From assembly GCA_002794035.1 (NCBI GenBank), contig PCXQ01000003.1:83451-120347 (forward strand): DNA of 36,897 nt, in the 5' to 3' direction. The notes under the pieces were generated by a model, which worked only from the letters and a program-made list of their open reading frames with translations, was not told where the DNA came from and searched no databases. This document shows positions 31,735 to 36,897 of the stretch, piece by piece. The number at the start of each line of letters is the position of its first letter. Positions within the stretch are counted from its first letter, which is position 1. The translations under genes and the position numbers were made by a program. This stretch comes from Candidatus Yanofskybacteria bacterium CG10_big_fil_rev_8_21_14_0_10_36_16. Lineage in GTDB: Bacteria > Patescibacteriota > Minisyncoccia > 2-02-FULL-40-12 > IGHO2-01-FULL-4-A.

Positions 31735-33354
31735 ATGTCAATTGGTGAAAAAGTTGGGTCAAATCTTCTCGGTGGCAGTATTGTGCTGGCCGTCTTTAGC
31801 TTGGTTTCTCGTTTGACGGGTCTTTTGCGGGACCGCGTATTGGCAGGCCGTTTTGGTGCATCAGAAACCCTAGATATTTATTATTCAGCTTTTAAAATTC
31901 CTGATTTTATTTTTAATTTAATAATTATTGGTGCTGTTTCGTCTGCCTTTATTCCCATATTTATTTCATACTTAGAAAAAAACAAAACCCAAGGGTGGAA
32001 GCTCGCAAGCAATTTTTTAAATGTATCCCTGCTTGTAATTATTGGTGTTTCTATTTTACTGATAATTTTTGTGCCAGTTCTTATGCCATTAATTGCACCC
32101 GGTTTTAGTGCCGAGCAGACCGTAGAGGCAATAAGGTTAACAAGGCTTATGTTTTTGAGTCCGATAATTTTTGCTGTGTCAACCATTATTGGCTCGGTGC
32201 TTCAGGCTTTGAAGCGATTCCTAGCTTTTGCTTTAGCACCTTCTTTTTATAACGTAGGTATTATTGTGGGTGCTATATATTTTGAGCCGAGTATGGGTTT
32301 GATGGGTTTGGGTTGGGGAGTAATTTTTGGCGCTCTTTTGCACCTATTGGTTCAAGCACCGGCTGTGTGGAAGGCTGGGTTTAGGTGGAGAGCAATCTTG
32401 GACCTTGCTGATATGGGGTTGCGTAAAATATTAAAATTGATGATTCCTAGAACTCTTGGGCTGGGGGTTAGTCAGATAAATTTGATAGTTATTACTGCAA
32501 TTGCCTCAACTATTGCAGTTGGCAGTATTACTATTTTTAATTTTGCCAATAATATTGGTTTTTTGCCCATATCAATGGTGGGCATCGCCATATCAGTAGC
32601 TGTTTTTCCAAATTTATCAGTTTCTATAGCCAGAAACAACAAGGAGCAATTCAGGAAAGATTATTTATTTGCATTTAATAGGATTGTTTTTCTTGCGGTG
32701 CCGTCTGCTTTTGCTTTGTTTATTTTTAGAAAACCAATTGCCGATTTAATATTGGGTACAGGTAAGTTTGATGTGGGAGATGTCAGTTTGACCGCTGCTG
32801 TCGTCGGTGCTTTTTCAGTAAGTGTTATATTTATTTCACTCATTTCTTTGATAAATAGGGCATTTTACGCAATGCATAACACTTTTGTTCCTGTGGTAAT
32901 TTCAATTTTTGGTGTTGGTTTAAATATCGTATTAAGCTTTTGGTTTGTTTATTTGTTTAGGAACGGAGAATTCTCTTTGTTTTGGCAAAAGGCATTCGGC
33001 ATATCAGACGGGTCGTCAGTTGCGGTTTTGGGTCTTGCTTTGGCATGGAGTATTTCTCATGCTTTCTATCTTTTTATGTTGTCTTATAAATTTAATAAAA
33101 TTGGTGAAATCAAAGACGACACTTTTGCGGTATTTGTTAAAACATTCGTTGTTTCATTTTTGGCATCTCTGTTTATTTATTTTGTTTCTATATCCAGTAA
33201 CGGCTTGAATTTTTTGGGCCAAGTTGCCATACTAGCTATTAATATGGCGCTGTTTGCCATAACATTTTTATTGTTTGCCAAAATATTCAAATTAGAAGAA
33301 ATAAAATTCTTGGGGGAATTATTTAGAAAATTATTTAATCGTTTAAATGCTTAA
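31735..33354 (+). CDS. murJ: Murein biosynthesis integral membrane protein MurJ (lipid II flippase)
   Basis: Multi-TM; SRLTGLLRDRVLAGRFGASETLDIYYSAFKIPDFIFNLI, NRAFYAMHNTFVPV. Confidence 0.95.
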   Translation: MSIGEKVGSNLLGGSIVLAVFSLVSRLTGLLRDRVLAGRFGASETLDIYYSAFKIPDFIFNLIIIGAVSSAFIPIFISYLEKNKTQGWKLASNFLNVSLLVIIGVSILLIIFVPVLMPLIAPGFSAEQTVEAIRLTRLMFLSPIIFAVSTIIGSVLQALKRFLAFALAPSFYNVGIIVGAIYFEPSMGLMGLGWGVIFGALLHLLVQAPAVWKAGFRWRAILDLADMGLRKILKLMIPRTLGLGVSQINLIVITAIASTIAVGSITIFNFANNIGFLPISMVGIAISVAVFPNLSVSIARNNKEQFRKDYLFAFNRIVFLAVPSAFALFIFRKPIADLILGTGKFDVGDVSLTAAVVGAFSVSVIFISLISLINRAFYAMHNTFVPVVISIFGVGLNIVLSFWFVYLFRNGEFSLFWQKAFGISDGSSVAVLGLALAWSISHAFYLFMLSYKFNKIGEIKDDTFAVFVKTFVVSFLASLFIYFVSISSNGLNFLGQVAILAINMALFAITFLLFAKIFKLEEIKFLGELFRKLFNRLNA

Positions 33355-35158
33355 AAATACTAGAAATTTTGTAATAATAGCACACATTGATCATGGTAAA
33401 TCCACTTTAGCGGATCGTCTTTTAGATTTGACCGAGACAGTAGATAAAAGACAAATGAAAGAACAGTTTTTAGATCAAATGGAATTAGAAAGAGAAAGAG
33501 GTATTACTATAAAACTTCAGCCGGTCAGGATGAAATATAAAACGGATTATATATTAAATCTCATAGATACTCCGGGACACGTTGATTTTTCTTATGAGGT
33601 TTCACGTTCGTTGGCTGCTGTTGAGGGTGCTATTTTGCTTGTTGATGCAACAAAAGGAATACAAGCTCAAACATTGGCTAATTATAATTTGGCTAAGAAT
33701 CAGGCCTTGGTCATAATTCCTGTTATAAATAAAATTGATTTACCAAATGCCAGAACTGAAGAGGTAGAAAAAGAAGTTAAGAACTTGCTTTCTCTAGGTA
33801 TGGGCGATGATTCAGGCAATGAAAATTATGAAGTTTTAAAGATCTCTGCAAAGACCGGCAATGGGGTAGAAAAAGTTCTTGAAGAGATTGTAGCTAAAGT
33901 TCCCCCGCCAAGCACAAACAAATTTCAACAAGATGAAGACGGTCCTTTTAGGGCTTTGATATTTGACTCCAGCTTCGACAGTTATAAGGGTGTGATAGCT
34001 TATGTGAGGGTTTTTGGGGGGAAATTAAAAGCAGGTCAACAAATAAGACTTTCAGCTACCAAGGTAAAAACAGGAGTTATTGAGGTCGGGTATTTTTCCC
34101 CGCTCCTATTAAAAAAGGATGAAATATTTGCAGGAGATATGGGGTATATTGCTACGGGATTTAAAGACCCGGGGTTTGTTAGAGTTGGAGATACTGTTTT
34201 GGGTACAGAAAATATTCAAGTGTTGCCCGGCTATAAAGAGCCTCGACCTATGGTATTCGCTAGTTTTTATCCTGAGAATGGCGATGATTACGATGAATTA
34301 AAAGATGCTCTATCAAAAATAAAATTAACAGATGCCTCACTTGTTTATGAACCGGAATCATCTCCTGGTCTTGGCAGGGGATTTAGACTTGGTTTTTTGG
34401 GAATGCTTCATGTGGAGATAGTTAGTGAAAGATTAAAACGAGAATATAATTTGTCTTTAATAGTATCAACGCCTTCAGTTGAATATCATGTTTTGATGAA
34501 GAACAAGAATAAGGAAATTGTTAGGTCAGCGGCTTCAATGCCTGATCCTTCAAGAATAGAGGGCATAGAAGAACCAGTTGTTGATTTGGAAATATTAAGC
34601 CCCTCGAGTTATTTGGGGCAACTAATGACACTCATGGCAGATTTAAGAAATGAATATGTTTCTACAGATTATCTGGGTAAAGAAGTTGTTGTTATAAAAT
34701 ATAAGGTACCGTTGGCTGAGATAATTACTGATTTTTATGACAAACTTAAAAGCGTCAGTTCTGGGTATGCTTCAATGAGTTATGGAGAGCCGAGTTATCA
34801 AATGGCTGATTTGGTGCGAATGGATATTTTAGTGGCGGGAGATTTAGTTGAGCCTTTTTCAAAAATCGTACCTCGTGAGAAGGCTTATAATGAGGGCAAG
34901 ACTATGGTAGAAAAATTAAAAGATGTAATACCTCGTCAGCTTTTTACAGTTGCTCTTCAGGCTGCTATTGGAGGTAAAATTATTGCTCGTGAAACAATAA
35001 AAGCCCAAAGAAAAGATGTAACTGGTTATCTTTACGGTGGAGATATAACACGAAAGAAAAAACTACTTGAAAAACAAAAGAAAGGTAAAAAGAAGATGAA
35101 AGAAATAGGAAAAGTTAATATTCCACAAAAGGTTTTTCTAGAAATGCTGAAGCGATAG
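33347..35158 (+). CDS. lepA: Elongation factor 4
   Basis: NFVIIAHIDHGKSTLADRLLDLT, ERGITIKLQPVRM, LIDTPGHVDFSYEVSRSLAAVEGAILLVDA, C-terminal LepA domain. Confidence 0.98.
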   Translation: MLKNTRNFVIIAHIDHGKSTLADRLLDLTETVDKRQMKEQFLDQMELERERGITIKLQPVRMKYKTDYILNLIDTPGHVDFSYEVSRSLAAVEGAILLVDATKGIQAQTLANYNLAKNQALVIIPVINKIDLPNARTEEVEKEVKNLLSLGMGDDSGNENYEVLKISAKTGNGVEKVLEEIVAKVPPPSTNKFQQDEDGPFRALIFDSSFDSYKGVIAYVRVFGGKLKAGQQIRLSATKVKTGVIEVGYFSPLLLKKDEIFAGDMGYIATGFKDPGFVRVGDTVLGTENIQVLPGYKEPRPMVFASFYPENGDDYDELKDALSKIKLTDASLVYEPESSPGLGRGFRLGFLGMLHVEIVSERLKREYNLSLIVSTPSVEYHVLMKNKNKEIVRSAASMPDPSRIEGIEEPVVDLEILSPSSYLGQLMTLMADLRNEYVSTDYLGKEVVVIKYKVPLAEIITDFYDKLKSVSSGYASMSYGEPSYQMADLVRMDILVAGDLVEPFSKIVPREKAYNEGKTMVEKLKDVIPRQLFTVALQAAIGGKIIARETIKAQRKDVTGYLYGGDITRKKKLLEKQKKGKKKMKEIGKVNIPQKVFLEMLKR

Positions 35159-35190
35159 CGTAAGTCCTGAACAAAGTGAACGGGTTGAAA

Positions 35191-35408
35191 AGATAGCTAC
35201 TTGTTATTAATTTTAATTACATTTTGTCTTTCGCGGACAAATTATATTCGCTACGCTTATTTTTCAGAACAAAATTCACGGTTCCCTGAGCCCTGCACAT
35301 ATTTGGACTCAGACCAAATTTTGTTTAGCTGAAAAATTACACTTCGCTTCGTTAATTTATTTCCACTTAGACAGAAGTAATTAAAATCAACAACTCGCTA
35401 CTCTGTTT
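35191..35408. repeat. Large imperfect inverted-repeat element
   Basis: Approximately 100-nt arms (35191-35290 and 35308-35408) align to each other as reverse complements with small indels. Confidence 0.75.
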
Positions 35409-35521
35409 ATCTTTAGAAGGATTCCGTGATATTAACTTTTCTATTTCAAAGGTGGTATATGGAATAAGAAGGAAGATATTTTCTAAAAATATTAATTTTT
35501 GAAAAAAACTCAGCTTTGGAT

Positions 35522-35544: not shown

Positions 35545-35572
35545 TAAAAAAAACAACCCCGTTAATTCGGGG
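35545..35572 (-). terminator. Minus-strand terminator downstream of the 33-aa ORF
   Basis: Minus strand CCCCG-AATTAA-CGGGG-TTG-TTTTTTTT. Confidence 0.7.
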
Positions 35573-35601: not shown

Positions 35602-35703
35602 CTAGTAAAAAGCTGGTAGCAATACAAAGCCAACCAACGATAATATGGTTAAAACCGCAACAATTATTCCGAACCAACGAATTATTTTTTTATTACCAAT
35701 CAT
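35602..35703 (-). CDS. 33-aa single-TM microprotein (below the ORF-track length cutoff)
   Basis: ATG to TAG encodes MIGNKKIIRWFGIIVAVLTILSLVGFVLLPAFY; own promoter and terminator. Confidence 0.7.
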   Translation of the reverse strand: MIGNKKIIRWFGIIVAVLTILSLVGFVLLPAFY

Positions 35704-35712
35704 ATATTATTA

Positions 35713-35741
35713 ATACTATTAGGACTTAAGTATTTGGTCAA
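35713..35741 (-). promoter_or_regulatory. Promoter of the microprotein gene
   Basis: Minus strand TTGACC (35741-35736), 17 nt, TAGTAT (35718-35713), 9 nt before ATG. Confidence 0.6.
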
Positions 35742-35746
35742 GCAAA

Positions 35747-36121
35747 ATGAATAACAAATTGTTCCAATCTCCTTTACTAACTGTTCCATTGGTTTTGTTG
35801 GTGGGATTTTTAGCTATAAGATTAATTCAAATAAACCCTCAAAGAGTTGATTTAAACAGAAAGATATCTAATTTAGAAAATCAGCTTAAAGAAACTGAAG
35901 AACTAATACAAGAATTAGAAGAAAATGCCGGGTATTATCAAAGCGATACATATAAGGAAATGCAGGCACGTTTGAAATTTGATTTGATTAAACCTGGGGA
36001 AAAGGTTATATATATTTATGAAAATTCCAGTGATGTTGAGGCAAGCAGTAGTGCTGAACCCGAACATAAAAAAGAAAAATCATTTTTCGGAAAATTATTT
36101 GAATATGTAACAGGGGATTAA
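35747..36121 (+). CDS. Septum formation initiator (FtsB/DivIC)-like protein
   Basis: N-terminal TM then coiled coil (LNRKISNLENQLKETEELIQELEENAGYYQSDTYKEMQARLKFDLIKPGEKVIYI). Confidence 0.8.
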   Translation: MNNKLFQSPLLTVPLVLLVGFLAIRLIQINPQRVDLNRKISNLENQLKETEELIQELEENAGYYQSDTYKEMQARLKFDLIKPGEKVIYIYENSSDVEASSSAEPEHKKEKSFFGKLFEYVTGD

Positions 36122-36150: not shown

Positions 36151-36501
36151 ATGAAAATAAATTGGAAAATTATTTTACCCATCATATTTATATCTTTTAT
36201 TCTCGCTGGAATATATTTTGTTTTTGGTGATTTCCCAAGACGCACACCAAAAATTAATGATAAAAAATATATCAAACTATTGGAGCAGTGTAAAATTAAG
36301 AGAGTGTTTTCATATGGAGAAAGTGTTGGAGACAGGTATTTTCAGGTCCTTGACTTTATTTTAGTAGATGGATCTCAGCGGAAGTTTATGTTTATAGTGG
36401 AGGAGCTTGAGAGAGTAAGTGGGTATGAACGAATGCAGGAATTGGAAGGAAATTACAAACAAAGATGCGGTTTTGATATCTGGCCCCCTTTAACTCCATA
36501 A
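36151..36501 (+). CDS. Hypothetical membrane-anchored protein
   Basis: N-terminal TM IILPIIFISFILAGIYFVF; TATAAT 6 nt upstream of ATG. Confidence 0.65.
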   Translation: MKINWKIILPIIFISFILAGIYFVFGDFPRRTPKINDKKYIKLLEQCKIKRVFSYGESVGDRYFQVLDFILVDGSQRKFMFIVEELERVSGYERMQELEGNYKQRCGFDIWPPLTP

Positions 36502-36742: not shown

Positions 36743-36813
36743 GCGAGAGTAGTACAGTGGTAGTACATATGCTTCCCAAGCATAGAACGCGGGTTCGATT
36801 CCCGTCTCTCGCT
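36743..36813 (+). tRNA. tRNA-Gly (anticodon CCC)
   Basis: Cloverleaf GCGAGAG/CTCTCGC, D stem GTAC/GTAC, anticodon arm TATGC-TTCCCAA-GCATA, T arm GCGGG-TTCGATT-CCCGT, U73, no encoded CCA. Confidence 0.95.
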
Positions 36814-36897
36814 CAAAATATCTGCTTATTTTGAGTTGGAATCGAACGGCCGGAGCGATGTATTTTTCGGAAGAAAAATACCGCGAGGCCCGGTCTT

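Follow-up and report, generated by a model that had tools for sequence, protein, structure and literature searches.

A stretch of 102 nucleotides between lepA and divIC, at positions 35602–35703 on the minus strand of the window (the whole 36,897-nucleotide stretch of Candidatus Yanofskybacteria DNA analysed here), is very probably a real protein-coding gene, and its 33-amino acid product appears to belong to a family of 30–40-amino acid membrane miniproteins with one helix. Judged from sequence comparison, this family is widespread in Patescibacteria (CPR) and under strong selection, and its gene is fixed beside divIC and/or lepA. The host genome consists of 7 contigs with a total of 877 kb. 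Yanofsky-, Portnoy-, and Moranbacteria were among its closest named relatives by lepA, which placed the window most likely in the Paceibacteria ('Parcubacteria') of the Patescibacteria. The features of the locus were as follows.

35602–35703, minus strand: gene of a single-transmembrane (TM) miniprotein, 33 amino acids (ATG-to-stop translation, homologs, codon-position bias, dN far below dS, one predicted helix)
35713–35741, minus strand: putative promoter, TTGACC (35741–35736), 17 nt, TAGTAT (35718–35713) (scanner, and enrichment over 69 homologs)
35547–35572, minus strand: putative intrinsic terminator, CCCCGAATTAACGGGG plus TTGTTTTTTT (scanner, and family-level enrichment)
35747–36121, plus strand: divIC/ftsB-like gene, a conserved neighbour (PF04977, E 3.2e-9)
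33347–35158, plus strand: lepA (EF4), a conserved neighbour at the opposite flank, convergent with the miniprotein gene in the window (PF06421 and GTP_EFTU)

Coding evidence and distribution

Translation of the minus strand from 35703 to 35602 gave MIGNKKIIRWFGIIVAVLTILSLVGFVLLPAFY followed by a stop codon, which was exactly the ATG-to-stop peptide quoted by an earlier, sequence-only reading that had proposed a missed microprotein gene at this place. Since the DNA is A+T-rich, frames of 33 codons are not rare in it, and it was conservation rather than frame length that raised this frame above chance. Used alone as the query, the peptide matched 37 of 59 related genomes at the lenient threshold of E≤10, and 28 of the best 29 matches outside its own genome were short frames of the same pattern adjoining the DivIC gene. 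One single-peptide match, at locus L030, overlapped a larger gene and was dropped as a chance match. With a 28-sequence profile at E≤0.1, the class to which the window's genome belongs (hereafter, the class) yielded matches in 299 of 387 genomes, and a wider profile at E≤0.01 matched roughly three quarters of it (218 of 288 genomes and 175 of 230 genera). A phylum-wide profile search matched 114 of 385 genomes, the weakest matches including chance ones inside long frames; the strong matches were nearly all free-standing short frames of 30–40 amino acids. Homologs outside the class came from ABY1-type genomes and from further Patescibacteria. A second, weaker match (G004:C37:550-645; E 0.005, 47% identity, in a 67-codon frame) lay in the genome that carries the closest homolog and is possibly a paralog or a chance match.

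In 23 close pairs of homologs, the differences at codon positions 1:2:3 were 191:64:391, and dN was 0.06–0.38 with dS mostly above 0.9 or saturated; in one near-identical pair, dN was 0. Conservation of the frame at the amino acid level persisted to approximately 30% identity among the homologs. The proposal of a missed gene, which was to be given up if homologs with a conserved frame or purifying selection on the codons were lacking, was thus borne out on both counts, with homologs across the order, class, and phylum and with dN far below dS.

An alignment of 102 distinct peptides from several classes gave the consensus KKxx[KR]IxWIIIS.L.I.SM..F[TL]..P, in which the near-constant residues were M23 (99 peptides), P30 (88), K6 (83), W12 (82), F26 (72), and S22 (70). 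The window peptide deviated from the family at two of these positions, with G at W12 and L at M23. AlphaFold2 predicted a single helix spanning residues 5–32, with a mean pLDDT of 91. The N-terminus of the window peptide is basic (K5, K6, and R9), from which an N-in/C-out topology would follow by the positive-inside rule; the chain ends three residues past P30, and the C-terminus would lie at the external membrane surface.

Promoter, start, and terminator

The sequence-only reading had given the gene its own promoter and terminator. The promoter elements were present as it described, with TAGTAT ending 9 nt 5' of the miniprotein ATG, but the number of promoter-like sites in the window (8) did not exceed that expected from shuffles (8.6), and at this locus alone the promoter was therefore not significant. 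Support came from the 69 homologs taken together: a TATAAT-like hexamer lay 3–14 nt before the start in 52% of them versus 20% in shuffles, its spacing showed a spike of 13 homologs at 6 nt, and where such a box was present, the −35 element matched on average at 3.7 of 6 positions versus 2.6 in shuffles.

Shine-Dalgarno sites were found before the start of the miniprotein gene in 1 of 69 loci, before lepA in 4 of 67, and before divIC in 1 of 77. The absence of a Shine-Dalgarno sequence before the miniprotein gene indicated that its start is probably leaderless or near-leaderless, and the gene would have a promoter to itself, giving mostly leaderless transcripts. We considered whether a leaderless start was a mark specific to the miniprotein and rejected this, since lepA and divIC likewise lacked Shine-Dalgarno sequences, some of them with a −10 box at an equal distance; a leaderless start would be a habit of these genomes. 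In related loci, −10-like boxes lay within 14 nt of many lepA and divIC starts, which suggested that leaderless starts are common there.

The terminator also had the form described, a CCCCG-AATTAA-CGGGG stem plus a T-run approximately 29 nt past the miniprotein stop codon, and it was plausible. Terminator-like sites were mildly enriched in the window (4 found, 1.2 expected). Of the 69 homologs, a minority of 7 had a terminator after the miniprotein gene, versus 0.4 expected. The 3' segment folded no better than its shuffles (z −0.19).

Gene neighbourhood

The synteny with the FtsB-like gene, which the sequence-only reading had proposed as a check, was kept in 80 of 81 class loci: divIC adjoined the miniprotein gene in 29 of 29 close loci (the window included), 39 of 40 distant loci, and 12 of 12 named loci. 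Because the DivIC profile was derived from the 29 close loci, the independent test was provided by the distant and the named ones. The divergent arrangement that had been read from the window proved to be the commonest layout but not a rule, as the two genes shared a strand in 20 of the 80 loci. Within the class, lepA lay no more than 700 nt from the miniprotein gene in 60 of 81 loci, and at least eight loci had divIC adjoining and no lepA found in the flanks (L059, L063, L077, L082, L085, L088, L091, and L094).

The order lepA-miniprotein-divIC also occurred outside the class (L208, L215-L217, L219, L223, L224, and Kuenenbacteria L156). The ABY1 lineages Falkow-, Buchanan-, and Magasanikbacteria had the order lepA-miniprotein-recJ; the identification of recJ was based on its sequence and on its similarity from locus to locus rather than on a family search. 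Among 35 mostly ABY1 loci, lepA was within 700 nt in 30 and divIC was present in one, and lepA and the miniprotein gene were often immediate neighbours on one strand in ABY1. The recJ version replaced the divIC version in L123, L128, L207, L209, L212, and other ABY1-type loci, and in L151, L174, L210, and L218 a 130-amino acid membrane protein was encoded between the miniprotein gene and recJ.

Several close relatives had, between the miniprotein gene and divIC, a gene for a membrane protein of approximately 160 amino acids with a bacterial PH domain (L003 927-1424 and L010 978-1460, in coordinates with the miniprotein gene on the plus strand). Ten similar proteins of this kind formed a cluster, nine of them encoded upstream of the miniprotein gene, and the PH-domain protein recurred beside the miniprotein gene in other classes (L211 and L221).

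In the window, an imperfect palindrome at 35187–35415 (outer arms 35203–35220 and 35377–35394) occupied the space between lepA and the putative miniprotein terminator. It had no Rfam match and was a single copy in the genome, and for the latter reason we rejected the idea that the wide space separating lepA from the miniprotein gene is a mobile repeat. After divIC, a 116-amino acid frame with an N-terminal hydrophobic segment (36151–36501) matched no Pfam or NCBIfam family above the cut-off, and a tRNA-Gly (CCC) gene was located at 36743–36814.

Resemblances and possible function

Neither the peptide nor its alignments matched an entry of Pfam, NCBIfam, or the PDB above any cut-off. A literature search of partial coverage returned no description of the family, which appears to be undescribed; since some gene callers accept frames this short, single copies may be present in public records under the name 'hypothetical protein'.

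The nearest model was that of Prli42 (NF033880), which matched 5 of 30 mostly ABY1 members, the best of them at 21.7 bits (E 1.3e-4) over the full length of the model (1–31), below its cut-off of 27.5 bits. In build, the two are alike: both have approximately 31 amino acids, one TM helix, a basic N-terminal KKxxR, and no other domain, and one Buchananbacteria member matched the model at full length, below the cut-off. The KKxx[KR] spacing of the CPR peptides (K5, K6, and R9 in the window) equals that of K4, K5, and R8, the Prli42 tail residues that bind RsbR (PMC6614362). The CPR peptides differ in carrying a W...S...SM..F...P signature of their own; all members tested fell below the cut-off, and neither the window peptide nor the A1 set matched the model. 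When whole genomes were searched with the Prli42 model, no genome gave a match above 27.5 bits; the lepA-linked gene was the top match in G756, G771, and G768 and was among the matches in G760, with the matches assigned by contig coordinates to loci L143, L169, L163, and L149. STAS proteins, which form the stressosome core (RsbR/RsbS), were found neither in the window's own genome nor in 38 of 40 relatives, and 2 of 41 genomes had one. Because the window peptide was unmatched, the cut-off was never reached, and STAS proteins were nearly absent, the family is, by sequence, Prli42-like in build and outside Prli42 as delimited by the model, and a stressosome role for the miniprotein is unlikely.

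With FtsL, DivIC, and FtsB (PF04999 and PF04977), the miniprotein shares a short basic cytoplasmic start, one TM helix, and a gene adjoining divIC; unlike them, it has no extracytoplasmic coiled coil, ends with its helix (residues 5–32), and has no Pfam match. The PF04999 FtsL model gave nothing above the cut-off in 31 genomes; since this insensitive model also missed most control genomes, we did not use the absence of FtsL as an argument. CydX, a single-TM miniprotein binding a larger complex, is similar in size, topology, and presumed action as a helper helix, whereas no sequence relation to it was found and no link to cytochrome bd was seen.

An enzymatic role is hardly conceivable for so small a helix; described bacterial miniproteins of such build bind a larger membrane protein or tether a soluble one. 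We tentatively favour the DivIC/FtsB division complex as the partner, with the miniprotein as a membrane-embedded accessory, because in the class no other gene accompanied the miniprotein gene as persistently as divIC; this reading, like the others of partner and function, was drawn from gene order only. The miniprotein would be inserted N-in/C-out and act as a helix binding a larger membrane protein: its helix would pack against the single-pass helices of the complex centred on DivIC/FtsB, and it would either stabilise this complex or hold it at the membrane via the basic cytoplasmic tail. A conserved face on one side of the helix, as expected if the helix packs, was not significant (p 0.59 for conservation along the helix). 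Since the mostly ABY1 loci have recJ instead, the link to divIC does not hold everywhere, and it might reflect a gene order that was simply inherited.

About as likely as a division-complex accessory is a role independent of the neighbours, in which the miniprotein, a relative of Firmicutes Prli42, would serve the membrane or the stress response in general, with no functional tie to the adjacent genes, and the gene order would simply be old. This would agree with the 5 of 30 mostly ABY1 members matched by the Prli42 model (best E 1.3e-4), with the independent choice of the lepA-linked gene by that model in G756, G771, G768, and G760, and with a general conservation of order around lepA (murJ-lepA). 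It is weakened by scores that never exceeded 27.5 bits, by the unmatched window peptide and A1 set, by the absence of STAS proteins from the window's own genome and 38 of 40 relatives, and by an adjacency to divIC that persisted through strand flips beyond what passive order would lead one to expect. A reading that combines several of these elements seems rather unlikely as a whole: the 30–40-amino acid TM helix would be a widespread subunit of the division machinery of Patescibacteria that has escaped annotation, acts with DivIC/FtsB, possibly couples division to LepA-dependent translation, and is distantly related to Firmicutes Prli42.

We consider it improbable that the miniprotein is a membrane anchor of LepA (EF4), whose basic tail would hold LepA and release it under stress, as Prli42 reportedly tethers RsbR in Listeria. 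The idea is attractive because 80% of EF4 in E. coli is reportedly membrane-associated and leaves the membrane when acid and high Mg are combined (PMC4085283), and because ABY1 keeps lepA, not divIC, adjacent; the proximity of lepA in 30 of 35 mostly ABY1 and 60 of 81 class loci and the KKxx[RK] spacing shared with the RsbR-binding tail of Prli42 also agree with it. Against it stand the class loci, at least eight, with divIC adjacent and no lepA found in the flanks, and a miniprotein gene that has its own putative promoter and usually lies on the strand opposite to lepA in the class. LepA is, moreover, to our knowledge near-universal in bacteria without such a partner. It is highly implausible that the frame is untranslated and was conserved as a regulatory element at the DNA or RNA level: the location in the lepA-divIC gap and the weak promoter and fold statistics of the single locus would suit such an element, but the codon statistics (third-position excess and dN far below dS) already refute it, amino acid-level conservation of the frame reaches approximately 30% identity, the protein stays constant while orientation and neighbours change, and the gap has no Rfam match.

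Patescibacterial genomes are very small, so a 33-residue protein that some three quarters of the sampled genomes of the class have retained likely matters to the cell; that it was overlooked illustrates how core genes can escape gene tracks with a minimum frame length. The linkage with divIC makes the assembly of the division complex in the ultra-small cells of Patescibacteria directly testable through this miniprotein. The sub-threshold resemblance to Prli42 raises the question of an older role of Prli42 outside the stressosome, and if both the kinship with Prli42 and the reading as a division subunit were true, this membrane miniprotein family would be older than both phyla.
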